Shown here: piece after piece, positions 10,895 through 36,982 of the stretch | Layout of the letters: each line of letters begins with the position of its first letter | Position numbering within the stretch: the stretch's first letter is position 1 | Assembly (NCBI GenBank): GCA_004194705.1 | Contig: SADC01001238.1 | Span: 1,039,258-1,103,257 of the forward strand | Direction of reading: 5' to 3' | From: Ditylenchus dipsaci | Lineage: Eukaryota; Nematoda; Chromadorea; Rhabditida; Anguinidae | DNA length: 64,000 nt | The notes under the pieces: model-generated | Databases searched by the model: none | The model's input: only the letters and a program-made list of their open reading frames with translations | What the model was told of the DNA's origin: nothing | Translations under genes and position numbers: made by a program

Positions 10895-11860
10895 GGGGAA
10901 GCCATTTAGCTATAAAAAAGTGGCTTCCATGGCGCAGTGCGTAAGCGTTTGCGTTTTTTGACCCAAAATGGTGTTTTTCTGGTGTTGGCAGGTTCAATCC
11001 CACGTAGTGGCATACGGTTTTTTTTTGCTTATTCGGCCAGTTTAGAGATAATTAGACTTTTTTGGCGCCAGATTCGGAATCAGCGACCCAAATTACCTCT
11101 AAACTGGAAATAAGCCAAAAAAAAAATGTGCCACTACGTGGGATTGAACCTGCAACACCAAAACAACGGGTGGTAATTCTTTTTGCCCATAGAATACTCG
11201 TTTTTGCCCATAGATTTATTTTTTCGCCCATAAATTAATTCTTTTTGCCCACAGATTTTAAAATTTCTCGGAAATTTAAATTTTTTGGTCAGAAAATGAC
11301 TTGGATCGCTCAGAATATCACCCCAGAGTGGCCAAAAGCCCCTGAAACTCGGTTTTTTGGGGTTTACTAAAGGGGGGGGCAAACTTTTTACGAAAAATCG
11401 ATTTAGCGTATCATATTTCGGGTCCGATGGGCTCAATCGCTCAGAATTTTAGGTTTTGGTGGTTTTGAGTGGTTCAGGTTGAAATTCTGAGCGATTGAGC
11501 CCATCGGACCCGAAATCTGATACGCTAAATCGATTTTTCGTAAAAAGTTTACCCCCCCCCCCTTAGTGAACCCCAAAAAACCGAGTTTGAGGTGCTTTTG
11601 GCCACTCTGGGGTGAGATTCTAAGCTATCCAAGTCATTTTCTGACCAAAAAATTTGAATTTCCTCAAAATTTTAAAATTTATGGGCAAAAAAATCTGTGG
11701 GCAAAAAGAATAAATCTATGGCCAAAAAACGAGTGTTCTATGGGCAAAAACGAGTATTCTATGGGCAAAAAGAAATATTATCCAAAACAACACCATTATG
11801 TGCCGAAAAACGCGAGCACTTACGCACTGAGCCATGGAAGCCATTTTTTCAAACCTTAAT
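10895..11860. repeat. Foldback element with tRNA-like arms, copy 2, interrupted by an insertion
   Basis: The left arm has A-box-like TGGCGCAGTGCGTAAGCG (10930) and B-box-like GGTTCAATCCC (10991). An inner palindrome centres on GCCAGATTCGGAATCAGCG near 11075. The right arm is split: GGGATTGAACCTGCAACACC, then an element at 11168-11781, then ACGCGAGCACTTACGCACTG and GCCATGGAAGCC near 11840. Confidence 0.7.
11168..11781. mobile_element. Foldback element with tandem-repeat arms and 10-bp target duplication
   Basis: Flanked by an exact direct repeat CCAAAACAAC (11158-11167 and 11782-11791). The arms are tandem variants of TTTTTGCCCATAGAATACTC followed by a homologue of the palindrome at 4874-5667. 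The 614-bp element carries no gene. Tandem-repeat arms recall Foldback elements, and a duplication near 9-10 bp recalls Mutator-like elements. Confidence 0.75.
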
Positions 11861-20289: not shown

Positions 20290-20937
20290 TTAAGACGGAC
20301 TCAAAGTTATCTGACAAGGAAACCTAGCGAACTTGTTTTTCACTCATAAATTAGAGTTTGGTCTCATTGGATGGCCAGTATGCGACTTTTAGTCAAATTT
20401 GTTGAGATCTCGTGCTCATAGGCCAAAAAAGTTGGGATGGGAAAGCTAGTAAAATATTGAAAAACCACAGGGAGGACCAAGGCATTCTTGAATTTCAAAA
20501 GAGACTTTCTGAGTCACAGGTTCAAATACTTTTGGGTGTACACCCTGTTCTTTTTTACTTTAATTTTTTATTTTTCTCGGCTCTAATGATTTTGTTATAT
20601 AGCTAAAAGGTTGAAGATAATTTTTTGACACCCAAACTTCTGAAAAAAGTGGGTAAAAATAGGATCTGCACCCAGTAGTATTCGGACCTGTGACCTAGTT
20701 ATAAAGCCTCTGCGGTTTTTCAATTCTTTACTCGCCTTCACAACTCAGCTTTTTGGTTTATGCGCATGATATCTCTACGAATTTGATTGAAAGTCGCATA
20801 CTGGCTATCCAATGAGACCAAACTCCAATTCATGAGTGAAAAAAAGTTCGCGAAGCTTCCTTGTTACTAACAAGAAGTCTAACAAGTTGTTAGCTCATAT
20901 CTTAGATTCATGTTTGAGTCCGTCATATCATACGCTG
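20290..20937. other. Gene-free; inverted repeat arms
   Basis: GATGGCCAGTATGCGACTTT (20370) is inverted at about 20790, forming a foldback. A copy of the CCAGCGTATG repeat ends at 20937, where the next element has inserted. Confidence 0.5.
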
Positions 20938-20947
20938 GCCTACCTCG

Positions 20948-23114
20948 GTACGTGACAAAATTTGCTCGCGCCAAAATTTGCTCGGACCAAAATTTGCTCG
21001 CGGCCATAATTTGCTCGGTCATAATTTGCTCGGACTAATTTTTACTCAATCTTGCAGATTTAACCTTGAGTGTTTAAATACATCTTAACCGTCCACATTA
21101 AGCCTTAATGGTCCTAAACCATCTTCAATGGTCTAGATACTCACTTGGTTCGGTTTGCTTCCATTTCCAGTGACTCATACGACATTTCCGCGCCGAAATT
21201 GTATTTTCTGGCGAAACAGCCGGACTGTTTTTCTCAACCATCCCGAATGGCCCTGAACCATCCTTAGTGGTTCTGTACCGACCACAGTGGAGATTTTAGG
21301 CAAGAGAGTAGGTATCTGAGCCAAGAGAGTGATACCCGAGCCAGGAGAATGGGTGGGTAGGGCAGGAGGGTAGGGACTTAAGAGAGTGGGTGGGTTGAGC
21401 AGGAGAGTGACTAGGAGAGTGGATGGGTGTTCCAGGAGAGTAGTTAGGAGTGCCAGGAGTGAGTAAGTGTCAACGGAGAGAAAGGTGGTCTACCAGGAAA
21501 GCAAATATGTTTGTTGGTGATTAGAGAGTTTTTGATGTTTTTCATTGGGATATTCTGATTAATTGATTTATATATTTTTTCTCAATGTATTAATTTTAAA
21601 CGTTATACGTGAATATCGACCAAGGCGAGGGTGGTCTGCCGACAGGCGGGCCCCTGAGCTAGTGGAATGGTAATGTTCAACTGTAATACCTAATTTTATC
21701 TAAACGAATTGGTGACCCAATAAGTGTGCAGCGAAAGCCACGCTATTTTTAGATGGCACAGCTGCGATCCAAAAATTAACCTCAACAACTCTTTTTTATT
21801 CATACATCTAAGACGAACAACAACAAAAAAACTCAGAGGTTATAACAATATTTCACTGATCCATCACGATCCGAGACATTCAACTGAACTTCTTCTTGGT
21901 CAGCAAAAGTCAGCAATTCATCGGAGATCAGAGCCGAACCAGTCGCCATCAGCTTTAGCCTTCCACCAAAACTGTCTTGAATCTTGTTAAACACAATTCT
22001 GTCGGCTAGCGAATCTATACAATATAATCCACTTAATTAGAGGGGTATAAATTAGCTATTGTAAAGATATTTAACCTACCTCTCCAACTCAGCATTCTTC
22101 ATATCAATGGCAGCGCTGAAGACAAATTTGCAGATTTTGGACTTGTTCACTTGAGTAAGAACATTATCATCCTCGACCCAACAGTCTCGAAACCTTTTTG
22201 AGATCATCCAAGATAGATCGGGCACCAACGACGACGATATGCTTGAGACATGGACACTTGCTCTAGCTTGCAGTAGGCCTAAACTACAAAGTTAATATAG
22301 AAATAATACACAAAAATTACACATTGAGCGTGTGTTACGAATAATCACAAAATATCACTTCGAGTTGGCTTGATTGATGATCAGGGTGGTGGCATCAATT
22401 CCGAAAGTGTGGTAGAGTGGCACAAGAACATTTTCGTAGGCGTAGGTGGCGTGCTCAATGAGAAGCGATTCTAGTCGCCTCTAGAGCAGATGAAAATAAA
22501 TGTATTATGGCCCACCGGTTGTCCATCTTGCGCAAAGCTCGCCCAATGTCTTCTGAAAAATCGATGGCCTGAAAAAAAATATGTTAACTCATGATATCCT
22601 TGCAAGTGAGCAAATTATACCTCATCGTACCAAATTGCTTATAAGTGATTGGATCGCTGAACACCACTGGAAATTCTCGACCATCATCAGAGTAGCTGCG
22701 ATCGCTCAAGTCCTCTCTTCTATCCATCTCCTTTCTCGAAAAAAATTATTCAATGAAAAGAGCAACGGTCGAGACAAATAAACAAAGAACATCTTTGTCA
22801 GCCAAGATAAAGTCATAAGTAGATTGTTCAGAACCATTTAGGCTGAATCCAGACCACGTAAGACGGATCTAGACCACCAAAGGTAAATCTGGAACACTGA
22901 GAAAAAATTTAGACCCAGGCAAATTATGGCCGAGCAAATTAAGGCCTGAGCAAATTATGGCCGAGCAAATTTTGTCCGAGCAAATTTTGGCGCGAGCAAA
23001 TTTTGACCGCGAGCAAATTTTGGCCCCGAGCAAATTTTGGCGCGAGCAAATTTTGGCCGCGAGCAAATTTTGGTCCGAGCAAATTTTGGCGCGAGCAAAT
23101 TTTGTCCGTGTCCG
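20948..23114. mobile_element. MULE/Foldback-like element with tandem-array TIRs carrying an ACSL fragment
   Basis: Bounded by an exact 10-bp direct repeat, GCCTACCTCG (20938-20947 and 23115-23124). The right end reads outward as GTCCGTGTCCG; the left end is GTACGTGAC. Both arms then consist of tandem units around CAAAATTTGCTCG, inverted with respect to each other (20955-21055 and 22915-23105), and the arm similarity extends inward through GGTCTAGAT-type repeats. The 2.2-kb element sits inside a copy of the CCAGCGTATG repeat. I see no transposase. A TTATGGCC-type minisatellite and GGAGAGTGGG repeats (21290-21480) fill part of the interior, and the minus strand from 22737 to 21833 is a broken ACSL gene. 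Confidence 0.8.
21833..22737 (-). pseudogene. Long-chain acyl-CoA synthetase (ACSL) gene fragment
   Basis: Five exon-like blocks in the order of ACSL proteins: about 22737-22621 (PITYKQ region), 22568-22516 (AIDFSEDIGRALRKMDNR), 22480-22359 (LLIEHATYAYENVLVPLYHT, the ACSL A(C/T)YxYSxVxVPLYDTLG block), 22278-22080 (CPCLKHIVVVGA, then NKSKICKFVFSAAIDMKNAE) and 22014-21833 (LADRIVFNKIQDSFGGRLKL followed by MATGSALISDELLTF). Acceptors and donors flank most blocks. The AMP-binding P-loop region (TSGTTGxPKG) between the fourth block's two halves is gone, and in-frame stops and frameshifts occur, so it cannot make an active enzyme. ACSLs activate fatty acids with ATP and CoA at ER or mitochondrial membranes. 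The fragment lies wholly inside a TIR element, which suggests capture. Confidence 0.8.
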
Positions 23115-23204
23115 GCCTACCTCGCCTAAGCCTAAAGACTAAGATTACGCGAAAAATCAACAGGGGCCTAGGCAAAAACTCAGACAACCCCATAAAAAAC
23201 CCCC

Positions 23205-25940
23205 TTTGTGAGGGGTTATCGAGGCTAGTAGAGATTTGCCAAAAACGAAATTTGCCAAATGTACGTTTTGCCAAAACGAAATTTGCCAAAACGAAATTTG
23301 CCAAAACGAAATTTGCCAAAACGAAATTTGCCAAAACGAAATTTGCCAAAACGAGATTTGCCAAAACGAAATTTGCCAAAACGAAATTTGCCAAAACGAA
23401 ATTTGCCAAAAGGCAAACAGGGGGACCAAGGCAGTTTTTTTACGTTTTTTTTCGAAGATTTTAGATTGTGTCCAAACCACCCCAGACCGACCAAAACCAC
23501 CCCAAACCACTCAAAACACCAAAACCTCCTAAAAAGTGTTAGTTCTTTCTAACTACTGCTTTGGGTGGCGGTAAATTGATCCAAAATTTTTGACCCAAGT
23601 GGACGATCACTTGGTTTAGTTAATACGTGAATTACCCAGTAAACCTGAGGTTGTATTATAGAAAAGATTAAAAATGATATGACTTACAGGAACCCCAGTT
23701 TTGGAGTAGTTTCGTATCTAGTAAGGTCTCCAGGTGTATGGAGGTGGTAGTACCAAGAAATTGGTATCCAGGTGGTTATACCAAGGCAGTGACGGGGTAT
23801 CGGTACTCAGGTGGAAGCGCTTAGGAATGGTACTTGGTGCTGGTAGAATGCGTTTTCTGGGTAGTGGTATATTGATTGTAGTACTCAGTTGGCAGTACCC
23901 GAGTTGCATATTAGACCATTAAAAGCAAGTGGTCGTTCACTTGGATCAAAAAATTTCACGGTTTTCATGCTCCAAAACTTGTTTTCTGGACTAATTCGGA
24001 CAAGCTGAAGATGGTTTGACAGTGGTAAAATAAAGTTTTGTTGTCCACTTAACTGAATCTTAACTGAAGTTGGAAATTTAAATTAACCGTGCAAGCAGCT
24101 AGTCATTTTTCAGATGACCATCTTTTTTTAAAGACCTTACTCCTCAATTTCTTACAATGAACACTCCAAACAAATCTTCAAGAAAATTTATTTAACACAT
24201 CGAGCAAACAACAAGCACAACACACCTTAGAATGATTTGGACATCTTCAAATTAGACTTCATCAAAAGCGAGATCGTAGCGAGATCCAAATCTCTTTTTG
24301 TCAAATTTCGTTTTGGCAAATTTCGTTTTGGCAAATTTCGTTTTGGCAAATTTCGTTTTGGCAAATTTCGTTTTGGCAAATTTCGTTTTGGCAAATTTCG
24401 TTTTGGCAAATTTCGTTTTGGCAATTTCGTTTTGGCAAATTTCGTTTTGGCAATTTTCGTTTTCGCAAATTTCGTTTTGGCAAATTTCGTTTTGGCAAAT
24501 TTCGTTTTGGCAAATTTCGTTTTCGCAAATTTCGTTTTGGCAAATTTCGTTTTGGCAAATTTCGTTTTGGCAATTTTCGTTTTCGCAAATTTCGTTTGGC
24601 AAATTTCGTTTTGGCAAATTTCGTTTTCGCAAATTTCGTTTGGCAAATTTCGTTTGGCAAATTTCGTTTTGGCAAATTTCGTTTTCGCAAATTTCGTTTG
24701 GCAAATTTCGTTTTGGCAAATTTCGTTTTGGCAAATTTCGTTTTGGCAAATTTCGTTTTGGCAAATTTCGTTTTCGCAAATTTCGTTTTGGCAAATTTCG
24801 TTTTGGCAAATTCGTTTTGGCAATTTTCGTTTTCGCAAATTTCGTTTTGGCAAATTCGTTTTGGCAAATTTCGTTTTGGCAAATTTCGTTTTCGCAAATT
24901 TCGTTTTGGCAAATTTCGTTTTGGCAAATTTCGTTTTGGCAATTTCGTTTTCGCAAATTTCGTTTTGGCAAATTTCGTTTTGGCAAATTTCGTTTTGGCA
25001 AATTTCGTTTTGGCAAATTTCGTTTTCGCAAATTTCGTTTTGGCAAATTTCGTTTTGGCAAATTTCGTTTTGGCAATTTTCGTTTTCGCAAATTTCGTTT
25101 TGGCAAATTTCGTTTTGGCAAATTTCGTTTTGGCAAATTTCGTTTTGGCAATTTCGTTTTCGCAAATTTCGTTTTGGCAAATTTCGTTTTGGCAAATTTC
25201 GTTTTGGCAAATTTCGTTTTCGCAAATTTCGTTTTGGCAAATTTCGTTTTGGCAAATTTCGTTTTGGCAATTTTCGTTTTCGCAAATTTCGTTTTGGCAA
25301 ATTTCGTTTTGGCAAATTTCGTTTTGGCAAATTTCGTTTTCGCAAATTTCGTTTTGGCAAATTTCGTTTTGGCAAATTTCGTTTTGGCAAATTTCGTTTT
25401 GGCAAATTTCGTTTTGGCAAATTTCGTTTTGGCAAATTTCGTTTTGGCAAATTTCGTTTTGGCAAATTTCGTTTTCGCAAATTTCGTTTTGGCAAATTTC
25501 GTTTTGGCAAATTTCGTTTTGGCAATTTTCGTTTTCGCAAATTTCGTTTTGGCAAATTTCGTTTTGGCAAATTTCGTTTTGGCAATTTCGTTTTCGCAAA
25601 TTTCGTTTTGGCAAATTTCGTTTTGGCAAATTTCGTTTTGGCAAATTTCGTTTGGCAAATTTCGTTTTCGCAAATTTCGTTTTGGCAAATTTCGTTTTGG
25701 CAAATTTCGTTTTGGCAATTTTCGTTTTCGCAAATTTCGTTTTGGCAAATTTCGTTTTGGCAAATTTCGTTTGGCAAATTTCGTTTCGGCAAATTTCGTT
25801 TGGCAAATTTCGTTTTGGCAAATTTCGTTTTGCAAATTTCGTTTTGGCAATTTTCGTTTTGGCAAATTTCGTTTTGGCAAATTTCGTTTTGGCAAATTTC
25901 GTTTTGGCAAATCTCCCCTAGCCGTTATCGAGGCTTGACT
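23205..25940. mobile_element. Large foldback element with tandem-array arms of very unequal length
   Basis: The left arm at 23232-23410 is about 11 units of CCAAAACGAAATTTG. The right arm at 24298-25915 is roughly 105 units in inverted orientation. Outside the arrays, AGAGATTTGCC (left) and GGCAAATCTCC (right) match as inverse sequence, and the right end leads to CGAGGCTTGACTG next to TA, a pogo-like terminus. The interior (23411-24297) holds GGTGGTAGTACC-type repeats and a block shared with 42838-43200; no gene is recognised. A clear target duplication was not found. Confidence 0.6.
24298..25915. repeat. 15-bp tandem array (CAAATTTCGTTTTGG), about 105 units
   Basis: The unit is CAAATTTCGTTTTGG, with recurring variants in which GG becomes CG (TTTTCGCAAATTTCG) or AAATTTCG becomes AATTTTCG. 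The variants appear in a roughly five-unit order (about three normal units, a CAATTTTCG unit, then a TTCG unit), so there is higher-order structure. Single-base losses shift the phase. Because 15 is a multiple of three, all frames stay open for hundreds of codons on both strands; these are not genes. Confidence 0.95.
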
Positions 25941-26682: not shown

Positions 26683-27975
26683 AAACACGATGGCTGAAAA
26701 AAATTCGGGAACAGACGGGATTTGAATGGGTAAAACAACGTTTTAAATTTTATCACGAACTTCTTCAAATCTCTTCAACTTTTAGCAAATCCTTGATTTT
26801 GACACTGGAATCGTGCTCAGCATAGGCGATTTAACTGTAAAACTGCTTTTAAAATGGCTCAAATAGAAATGTACCACCAAATGTGAGAATTTGGCCGCCT
26901 TTTTTATTTTTTTGGCCGCCTTTTTTGAATTTCAAATTAAAAAATAGAAATTGGCCGCCTTTTTTTTAAAATTTTTCCTTTTTTCCTGCCTTTTTTTCTT
27001 GTCAATTCCTGTTTTTCAAATTTTAGCTTCAATTTGATGGTAATTTTGCTCTTTATGATAGCAAAAATGAAAGCGCAGAATCTGGGCTACGTACTGGTAT
27101 AAAAAAAGGGTGAACTTATAGTAAAAAGTTAGAAAATATAATCAAAAACACCTAGAGGGCTATTTCGGCCTCTATCTCCTAAATGGTTTTTGTGTAATTT
27201 GAACGTTTTTGAATTACAGCTTTTACAAGTTGGTACTATCTCTTTCTATAATAGCAAATACGAAAGCCCAGAACTTTGGCTACTCACTAATTTGAAAAAA
27301 GTGTCAACTTGTAAGGTAAAATTCAAAAAATTACACAAAAACCATTTAGCAGGTAGAGGCCGAAATAACCATCTAGGTGTTTTTGATTACATTTTCTAAT
27401 TTTTTCCTATAAGTTCACGATTTTTCATACCAATATGCAGCCCAGATTCTGGGCTTTTCTTTTGCCATCATTAAGAGCAAAGTTACCATCAAATAAGAGC
27501 TAAAATTTGAAAAACAGGAATTGACAAGAAAAAAGGCGGCCAATTTTTTAAAAAAGGCGGCCAAATTCTATTTTTTTATTATGAATTTAAAAAAGGCGGC
27601 CAAAAAAATTAAAAAGGCGACCAAATTCTCACTTTTGGTGTACATTTCTCATACAGCCCTTTTAAAATATGAGAGTCACTTTCAAATTTCAAATTCCGCT
27701 CAAGACAAAAAACATTTGATTTCAAAAAAAAATGGAAATTATATATTTGAATATTTTTTGTCTTGAGCGGAACTTGAAATTCGACCGGGACTCTCATATT
27801 TTAAAAGCAGTTTTACAGTTAAATCGCCTACACTAAGCACGATTCTCGTGTCAGGATTAAGGATTTGTTGAAAGTTGAAGAGATTTGATGAAGTTCGTGA
27901 TAAAACATCAGAAGCTGCTTTACCCGTTGGAATTCTTCCTTTTTCCGAATTTTTTTCAGCCATCGTGTTCAGCGT
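26683..27975. repeat. 1.3-kb palindrome between the direct repeats
   Basis: The outer arms CACGATGGCTGAAAAAAATT (26689) and its inverse (27955) converge through GGCCGCCTTTTTT tracts (26885-26960, inverted at 27530-27620) to a centre near 27250. The right arm is interrupted near 27670-27800 by a small palindrome (AAATATGAGAGTC / GACTCTCATATTT). Confidence 0.7.
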
Positions 27976-33215: not shown

Positions 33216-33964
33216 TCTTTATACAGTTAACTCTTGTTACACAGTCAACTCTTGCTGTATGGTCAACTCTAGCTATTAGTGCAGTTTTTGAGAGTTGACG
33301 AGAGTTGATTGTATCATAATCTCTCTAATTACCCACTCGACTCAAAGACCATCCTAGTGGGTGAATAAAATATAACAGACCTTCCCTCATCCTGACTGAG
33401 GAGCAGAAAATTGAGTCATTAGGGGTTTTTTTGGTCTAGTTTGAATTGGTCAAGTTTTCTCCTCTCCCTTTTCAGGGGATCGAAAAAATAGGCGCACATA
33501 TGCTTCTATTGTAGCAAAAAAGTATTTGTTATTTTTAGTTAAGAAAGGTCTTCATGCTATATTAATATTTTCTGCTAACCAAACTAATTCTGAGCCTAAT
33601 AACGGCTTTATTTTTCTAAGTTTGCTAACTTCAAACATGATATTCAAGGGAATAAGGGCAATTTTCAGCAGAAGGAGGAATCATGCTCCATGTGAACCGT
33701 GGGATTTGAGGTAAGTAAAGTTATGTCCGTGACAATTCACTACCACGCCGATTCACTACCTGGGACAATCCACTACCACTAGTAAAAAAGGTACAATTCA
33801 CTACCAGGGCTAAAATAGGACAATTCACTACCCTAGTAAAAAAGAGACAATTCACTACCCTTTTTCAATATCCATAAGTAATGTTAAATTATTCATTAGC
33901 TGCTGAGTTTCCTCCTGGGTTACTTTCTGTATCTGTTTGCGTATTTGTAGTTATGTTTTGCTAG

Positions 33965-36313: not shown

Positions 36314-36982
36314 GTAAGCCTCAGGAACAGTGAATCAGCAAGAAAGTCACAAAAACCATGTTAAATCCTCCATTTTTTTGTCTTGAATGTTGTTGTTCTT
36401 TATTGTCGAATAAATAGCTCTTGCTCACGTGAATTTTTCGTGAAATGAATGGTATTGGTTTTAGTATGTGTTCCTAAACTATTTATTAGATGTCAGAACC
36501 TTACCACAAACCCTATGTTACAGCAAAAAAGAATCTGAAAAATTCGAATGGTGTGGTTCGGCTAAAAAAACATATTCCATGTTAGTTGTGCATGAAAAAT
36601 TGTTATAACCGTTAAAAAATGGAAACTAAATACAAAATAGGAAATAGGAAATTTTCGTTTAAAAAATTTGAATTTCATAGAAAATGTTCTTGGCGTTTTG
36701 TTTATTTTTAAATGCACTAAAATGCAGTTTTTGAGGGGCCGTGCGTTGTTGGCTTTGAGAAATAAAAACATTATAATTTTAAAAATAGTGGTGAATTGTC
36801 TCCTTTTCATTATTGGTAGTGAATAGTCTCTATTTTACTAGTGGTAGTGAATTGTCCCCATTTTAGCACTGGTAGTGAATTGTCCTTTTTAGTAATGTTA
36901 GTGAATTGTCCCAGGTAGTGAATCGGCGCGGTAGTGAATCGTCCGTGTCCGAGTAAAGTTAACTAAAATGGATTAAAATACA

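Follow-up and report, generated by a model that had tools for sequence, protein, structure and literature searches.

A foldback-type Pack-MULE carrying a captured ACSL-type gene fragment in the nematode Ditylenchus dipsaci

How does part of a host gene for an ACSL-type fatty-acid-CoA ligase come to lie between two inverted arrays of short tandem repeats, and has the resulting unit moved as one? The question is raised by positions 20946-23113 of a window from the genome of D. dipsaci, the window being the whole 64-kb stretch of DNA that was analysed, part of contig C1208 of an assembly of 227 Mb in 1359 contigs (C numbers denote contigs and L numbers loci of this assembly). This segment is a non-autonomous Mutator-like (MULE) transposon of the foldback type, and the locus is very probably a foldback-type Pack-MULE in a nematode, in which a hybrid of element and host gene spread by transposition. 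An initial annotation, made from the sequence alone, had proposed a MULE/Foldback-type family mobilising host gene pieces in this animal. The family assignment is borne out by the tips, arms, 9-bp duplications and FLYWCH and MULE pieces described below, and one captured gene has been moved, but the plural is not supported, only one such gene having been recognised.

The feature that defines foldback elements, inverted arms built of tandem repeats, was found both in the repeat search and in the alignment of copies. Arrays of about 16-bp units of the CAAAATTTGCTCG type occupy 20956-21041 on the left and 22919-23104 on the right, the best ungapped pairing between the arms being 64 nt at 98% complementarity; the tandem-unit arms claimed in the initial annotation are also evident on direct reading. 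According to repeat search and tip count, the left arm (20946-21041) comprises the B tip, CGGTACGTGAC, followed by about five units of CAAAATTTGCTCG(CG), and the right arm (22919-23113) about 12 units and the A tip, which in the family reads CGGACACGGAC from the outside in. The element ends are asymmetric, with CGGACACGG.. at one end and CGGTACGTG.. at the opposite end. The tip GGACACGGACAAAATTTGCTCG was found at 81 genomic places (up to 2 mismatches) and the other tip, CGGTACGTGACAAAATTTGCTCG, at 178 (up to 3 mismatches), against 0 for each reversed control, which excludes a chance origin of the tips. The pair CGGACACGGAC / CGGTACGTGAC recurs with other tandem units (TTTGCTCG, TTTGCCCG, CTTCTCG and TCCGCTCG), so the tips look conserved while the arm units apparently turn over.

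Target site duplications were scored by pairing A and B places on one contig, with the B partner among the 100 B places listed and C17 left out, and with CGG taken as the start of both element ends. On this definition, exact 9-bp duplications flank 27 of the 37 copies with both ends read (5/9, 2/2, 0/1 (L057), 17/20 and 3/5 by batch), in line with the 8-11 bp, mostly 9-bp, duplications of the MULE superfamily. When the flanks of the 25 copies in the batches of 20 and 5 were mispaired, 0 of 600 pairings were exact, with a mean of 6.2 mismatches and a minimum of 1. At the window copy, an 11-bp word, GGCCTACCTCG, is common to both flanks, and the duplication is best read as GGCCTACCT, at 20937-20945 on the left, where its 9-bp size is taken from the family, and at 23114-23122 on the right, one G at the end of the element being either absent or shared on this reading; the CG after the 9-mer is part of the tip at one end of the element and of the flank at the other. 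The exact 10-bp flank word of the initial annotation corresponds to this 9-mer without its first base, extended by the next two letters: a repeated word is present, but the family duplication is 9 bp, and a 10- or 11-bp duplication is rejected for the family by the 9-bp repeats of the copies. A copy of the left-flank repeat elsewhere in the genome (L116, C855:10180-10560) crosses the point corresponding to the window insertion uninterrupted and contains the word once. Of 59 aligned columns, 48 are identical to the window flanks; about 45 bases belong to the left side, and a stretch of 13 identical bases closes the match on the right. This site hints, weakly, at a related uninterrupted site of the kind expected of an unoccupied relative. 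The joined-flank search also matched both flanks themselves, as well as the left-flank repeat at many places.

The origin of the captured segment was traced through a PF00501 search of the genome, which gave 18 matches and led to C349 and the donor locus L053 (C349:184000-190500). The L053 exons match the AMP-binding profile at 8.8e-11, over the cut-off, with two further stretches below it (4.1e-6 and 0.077), and they match fatty-acid-CoA ligases and related enzymes both in NCBIfam, in all cases below the curated whole-protein cut-offs, and among solved structures, where one exon (L053:3524-3772) had no significant match (best 0.37). The finer name ACSL is one that we take to apply to the C349 gene on the basis of motifs. 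This gene extends past the copied stretch on both sides and is adjoined on the opposite strand by a Ser/Thr-phosphatase-like gene, recognised by eye; no arm units were found in the 6.5 kb of L053 (four 13-base words, up to 1 mismatch). The arrangement that distinguishes Pack-MULEs and Pack-TIRs, namely host gene sequence between the element ends and a donor elsewhere without element flanks, is therefore present. The captured stretch is 1212 bp of the host ACSL-type gene with introns kept: block 1 (22195-22629, reverse strand; exons and two introns) is 87% identical to L053:2737-3167 and block 2 (21902-22193, reverse strand; exons and an intron) 89% identical to L053:3656-3948. The introns align through donor and window, which places the capture at the DNA level, as the initial annotation had suggested; the intact gene it expected was found in the C349 donor with the same intron positions, and no continuation of ACSL outside the arms was seen in the window sequence read. 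For the 3' part of the donor, no other long DNA match exceeds 76%. The C349 gene shows apparent frame slips, which do not settle whether it is a pseudogene because single-base run-length gaps are frequent in this assembly: the copies L041 and L043, considered below, differ by about a dozen of them, mostly in one-base runs, so that single-base frame slips are not to be over-read here.

The junctions of the captured stretch are best understood from L052, an element with both tips, an exact duplication (GTACCCACC) and FLYWCH and MULE pieces. Beyond block 1, the sequence at 22632-22727 (reverse strand) is the first exon of a MULE transposase (MDRREDL...ITYKQF), common to L052 up to TATAAGCAATTT, where the window departs and L052 continues with its own exon end; the exon is broken here by the ACSL capture. 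The initial annotation had counted five ACSL blocks lacking the ATP-binding core. The core is missing, but the outermost block beside the right arm (..MDRREDLSDRSYSDDGREFPVVFSDPITYKQF..) is rejected as ACSL, matching this transposase exon instead. On the other side of the captured stretch, 21856-21901 (reverse strand; approximate bounds, overlapping the backbone piece at 21671-21861) is a remnant of the last transposase codons, fused to ACSL; these codons (..EYLRGLAHNFIMDQ stop in relatives, translated by eye) are matched in L052, L056, L057, L009, L013, L016, L026 and L029, and more distantly in L104. ACSL thus sits between the first exon and the last 20 or so codons of the transposase. The remainder is element sequence, all on the reverse strand: the 5' subterminal MULE backbone (22728-22918), of which 22728-22839 lies within an 81% match to L052; the backbone downstream of the transposase gene (21671-21861), matched in L052 as two pieces (83% over 21772-21861 and 70% over 21671-21737); and the subterminal sequence (21042-21670), which can be aligned, gaps included, across the 8 full copies with ACSL that were compared and includes a variable minisatellite at 21301-21459, recorded as tandem-array rows. 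A TTTGG word at the 5' junction also occurs in the gene a few bases upstream and might, at a guess, represent microhomology.

Replacement of the middle of the transposase gene by ACSL is the layout expected of a gap filled from another template. In the history proposed here, the FLYWCH and MULE transposase gene of an ancestral element would have lost its central part, and gap filling or template switching would have put in its place the 1212 bp of genomic DNA, with introns, from the ACSL-type gene of the host. The hybrid would have retained the sequences recognised by the transposase, namely the tips and the tandem-repeat arms, and transposase supplied by sister elements would have mobilised it in trans, a 9-bp target duplication arising at each insertion, and a competent transposase would presumably still exist. 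The window line would later have lost 488 bp containing the ATP-binding core, the other line keeping the core and losing the 5' part.

The comparison of copies on which this last step is based showed that all 11 copies compared in the window subfamily lack L053:3168-3655 (488 bp), with the same break to within a few bases; in the window the junction of this deletion lies at 22194-22195 (reverse strand). The sister subfamily, L050 (C372) and L051 (C38), retains the ATP-binding part missing from the window, judged by eye to include, in degraded form, the region of the TSGT-type motif and the exons after it, and its ACSL matches begin only at about L053:3045-3056. In both subfamilies the ACSL match ends on the 3' side at L053:3946-3948, and L050 shares sequence with the window beyond this breakpoint. 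Because this 3' breakpoint is common, one capture explains both subfamilies, and the simplest reading of the alignments is that a single capture was followed by two later deletions, the 488-bp core loss and the 5' loss.

Two other insertions were observed within the sister copies. At L050:1600-1746, a palindromic insert of ACACTTCGCTATG-type units, itself a tiny foldback, lies within the ACSL stretch. At L051:2384-4568, a pogo-like element (BrkDBD, HTH_Tnp_Tc5 and DDE_1 pieces) is nested inside the ACSL-bearing MULE, with inverted ends CCGTATTTCCTCTAATAG and TA on both sides; its DDE_1/Tc5-type gene was considered as a second captured gene or as the motor of the family and rejected, since it looks like a nested pogo-like insertion.

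The hybrid is widespread. The interior query gave at least 57 matches in the genome, and an ACSL stretch of 100 bp or more is present at at least 36 matched places besides the donor (37 of 39 rows with the donor included), or at least 34 with the pairs on C17 and C21 each taken as one place. The 39 rows were entered from the interior matches on a criterion of at least 100 bp overlap with the ACSL stretch, the remaining 18 of the 57 being extra pieces at places already counted; C17 (an inverted pair) and C21 (two adjacent matches) count as two each, and the ACSL-place counts are lower bounds because 40 of 92 first-look candidates were scored. Arms and tips were read at 15 of the ACSL places, and both tips are present in all of these, the 8 full copies and the copies on C372, C912, C1226, C1254, C1344, C321 and C83; the full copies, the window included, align at 0.898-0.999 identity. 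Exact 9-bp duplications flank 11 ACSL-bearing copies among the 27 (C998, C1232, C1356, C279, C372, C912, C1226, C1254, C1344, C321 and C83), which is the multicopy spread with separate duplications that further characterises Pack-MULEs and Pack-TIRs. Two near-identical copies, L041 (C998) and L043 (C1356), lie on different contigs with different duplications; their alignment shows gaps in 15 columns, most of them single bases within runs, together with two differing letters beside a gap that apparently reflect misalignment. Their near-identity suggests very recent movement. The element family is a real, young, high-copy Pack-MULE of the foldback type.

Among 30 A-tip loci compared (only matches of more than 70 bases ending past base 260), 11 have the donor gene stretch, 14 the N-terminal half of the transposase and 5 neither (L012, L014, L018, L019 and L033). 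No second captured host gene was recognised among these 30 loci, a comparison that falls short of a full search, nor by eye in the open frames of L014, L018, L019, L032, L033 and four further elements, among which only the pieces of L104 were scanned against profiles (Pfam).

The state of the captured piece bears on whether it serves any purpose. Divergence among the 11 copies is 0.063 in exons and 0.051 in introns, compared with 0.127 and 0.186, respectively, between the copies and the donor, so that the comparison with the donor shows exon constraint and that among the copies does not. One exon stretch, when translated, contains stops or frame slips in 11 of 11 copies, and some of these stops are base changes, not run-length gaps. 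Since the exons of the copies diverge no slower than their introns, the captured ACSL piece behaves, by this measure, as a passenger. Two alternatives would give it a role. The worm germline silences foreign DNA by small RNAs and licenses sequences matching its own expressed genes, and the ACSL piece could be a self-like camouflage by which the element escapes this silencing and spreads better. We consider this a long shot, albeit one with consequences: small RNAs from the many copies could tune the ACSL gene, and the ACSL line would be a natural camouflage experiment. That selection maintains the piece for a coding or regulatory function might be read from its presence at at least 36 places against at least 13 that nearly cover the transposase query, but the exon and intron differences among the copies and the disrupted frames in all 11 make such selection very unlikely.

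The identity of the transposase is the next point to be weighed. A 586-bp transposase query, which covers the FLYWCH half and does not span the catalytic part, gave 46 matches in all and was nearly covered at at least 13 places, a lower bound as 40 of the 46 were scored; several loci with the N-terminal half (L013, L016, L023 and L029) are without the catalytic part. The FLYWCH profile matched L056 at 4.8e-8, over the cut-off, and L052 at 6.5e-4, below it, and the combination of an N-terminal FLYWCH finger with a MULE domain, a feature of the Phantom subclass, is found in L056 and L052. Catalytic stretches were recognised in pieces of L009, L017, L020, L052, L055, L056 and L057. In a blastp comparison with open frames at four PF10551-bearing loci, a small set, the C-terminal part scored 2e-26 and two catalytic stretches around INVDFE and YLDGTF 9e-19 and 9e-16, the pieces with these scores coming from L056, L052 and L009. 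Elements with the same ends therefore carry a MULE/DDE transposase on weak Pfam and supporting blastp matches, and the transposase-bearing relatives sought by the initial annotation exist, for example L052 with both tips. MULE-domain matches number at least 115 genome-wide at E <= 0.001. A related element on C70, L104, has the same tips with different tandem units and MULE pieces, its own duplication being inexact; other tip relatives have exact 9-mers (C604, C1161 and C154) or do not (C1288).

A non-MULE foldback transposase, for instance of the P type as in Galileo, could in principle move the family with the MULE pieces as passengers, given that foldback arms, according to the part of the literature available to us, are not diagnostic of one transposase (PMC3169594) and that pieces of the family itself match MULE only weakly. 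The 9-bp duplications, the FLYWCH half nearly complete at no fewer than 13 places (by a query without the catalytic part), the catalytic stretches in the seven loci listed above and the MULE pieces in the same-tipped related family (C70, L104) render this highly improbable. Spread by segmental duplication or satellite-mediated recombination is in our view more improbable still. It could draw on C17:171494-175381 (L010 and L011), where two ACSL-bearing copies with the same outer flank word are inverted back to back in a composite that may stem from foldback recombination or from assembly, and on neighbouring matches on C21 and C1198, but copies have their own 9-bp repeats, and the flanks of L041 and L043 appear unrelated by eye (the flank comparison across all copies covers about 30 bases). 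Finally, that an ordinary host pseudogene or exon cluster lies by chance between two satellite arrays, tandem arrays being common in the window (71 rows, overlaps counted), is next to impossible, as the same composite of both tips and ACSL was read in 15 copies, 11 with exact 9-bp duplications, the whole unit recurring at unrelated sites with separate duplications.

Several observations nevertheless count against a Pack-MULE moved by a MULE transposase from the donor described. Other ACSL-type genes exist (up to 77% protein identity), and on account of these paralogues the identification of the donor is based on DNA identity. Numerous same-ended copies of the sort sought by the initial annotation, with duplications of 9-11 bp, do exist at 9 bp, but 10 of the 37 have no exact repeat (the window, L040, L047, L048, L057/C81, C271, C274, C236, C70 and C1288). 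A single mismatch separates the two repeats of L048, and those of L040, C70 and C274 would match after a shift by one base, the others matching poorly; the window copy itself, scored at the strict family ends, has 6 mismatches and is not among the 27. The related uninterrupted site on C855 is short and only 81% alike. The MULE match of L052 (3.2e-3; 18.3 of 27.6 bits) is under the Pfam cut-off, that of L104 (4.9e-6; 27.3 bits) 0.3 bits under it, and two single pieces and one X-joined piece of L056 gave no MULE match in Pfam. An intact reading frame for the transposase was not found in any of the copies read, an absence qualified by the run-length gaps of the assembly.

Elements of this kind are already known, but the completeness and copy number of the present family are unusual for an animal. 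Plant Pack-MULEs combine MULE ends, duplications of about 9 bp and host gene fragments with the loss of the transposase, and about a third of those in rice are multicopy. The D. dipsaci element shares the first four features and differs in its animal host, its foldback arms and the one captured gene recognised, against large numbers in plants. Among animal cases the nearest involves FB4, which is a Foldback element. In the sections available of a survey of animal Pack-TIRs, 370 were reported in 100 genomes with four multicopy cases, among them Drosophila Ssk-FB4, in which a host gene copied by a terminal inverted repeat element moved further with new duplications at new sites, and capture and spread were attributed to template switching and transposition (PMC8277862). 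Unlike the cases described there, a single capture here has led to at least 36 matched places and two deletion lineages, and while Ssk-FB4 was reported to be protein coding (PMC8277862), the D. dipsaci element looks non-coding.

The closest relative by description is Tm1, a Mutator/Foldback family of root-knot nematodes, for which the accessible text reports composite arms of about 14-bp tandem units, asymmetric outer motifs (one CGGTTAA), duplications of 8-10 bp, mostly 9 bp, in 45 of 53 complete elements, a FLYWCH and MULE (Phantom-type) transposase in one member type, and many non-autonomous derivatives (PMC3169594). The present family resembles it in nematode host, tandem-unit arms, 9-bp duplications, FLYWCH-MULE transposase and asymmetric tips outside the arms, one of them starting CGG (CGGACACGG / CGGTACGTG), and differs in its unit of about 16 bp (CAAAATTTGCTCG..), compared with the different unit of about 14 bp in Tm1. 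The same text mentions, for Tm1, no capture of a multi-exon host gene from an identified donor (PMC3169594), and the word stem 'captur' has 0 occurrences in its main part. Phantom MULEs, as far as the portion available describes them, have 8-10 bp duplications, FLYWCH in some members and a minisatellite in those of aphids (PMC6446971), and the D. dipsaci family is likened to them in these features. With Rehavkus, as outlined in the same portion, it shares 9-bp duplications and a minisatellite near one end; Rehavkus is described with a PHD finger (PMC6446971), whereas a FLYWCH finger was matched here, and no PHD finger was matched among the Pfam-scanned transposase pieces, all of them incomplete and PHD not specifically sought. 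Turmoil-1 of Caenorhabditis elegans, judging from the excerpt at hand, is likewise a DNA transposon of a nematode that has acquired exons of host genes, an intron being retained in one fragment, but it belongs to the Harbinger superfamily with its usual 3-bp duplications, holds the fragments within its terminal repeats and exists as one full and eight partial copies (PMC2572040). No comparable nematode case was found in the available parts of a MULE survey (PMC6446971), a Caenorhabditis survey (PMC10015627) and an arthropod MULE survey (PMC13359780), and no nematode Pack-MULE was recognised in the literature by title and start of abstract, a partial coverage that does not prove absence.

Gene capture by cut-and-paste transposons is a textbook story in plants and thinly documented in animals, with few multicopy cases. 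Here one genome holds the donor, transposase-bearing relatives, both junctions, two deletion lines and very young copies, which together allow the order of events to be read directly as a gap in the transposase, filling from a host gene, amplification and decay. The ACSL-bearing copies could also be mistaken for genuine ACSL genes by gene-finding programs.

Other repeats of similar build occur in the window. Adjoining the element, 23225-25915 forms a second foldback-like structure, in which a short ATTTGCCAAAACGAA array (23234-23411) faces a 1.6-kb reverse-complement array (24287-25912) with about 0.9 kb between them. Inverted tandem arrays of about 21 bp, of the TAATTCTTTTTGCCCATAGAT / TCTATGGGCAAAAACAAGTAT type, at 11174-11258 and 11674-11779 make up a small foldback-like unit, and apparently inverted arrays of about 27-28 bp (GGACAATTCACTACC.. 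/ ..GGTAGTGAATTGTCTCC) lie about 3 kb apart at 33763-33861 and 36776-36944. Inverted arms of 172 nt at 26684-26855 and 27798-27969 are 84% complementary and 942 nt apart. Elsewhere in the genome, evidence that the host is very probably a nematode comes from an SL1-like 22-base word, which we take to be the nematode spliced leader. It was found at 267 places (up to 2 mismatches; reversed control 0), with runs spaced about 1.1-1.35 kb; those at C351:6620-19368 and C409:50373-59709, for example, with a spacing of about 1.1-1.2 kb, appear to be spliced-leader gene arrays.

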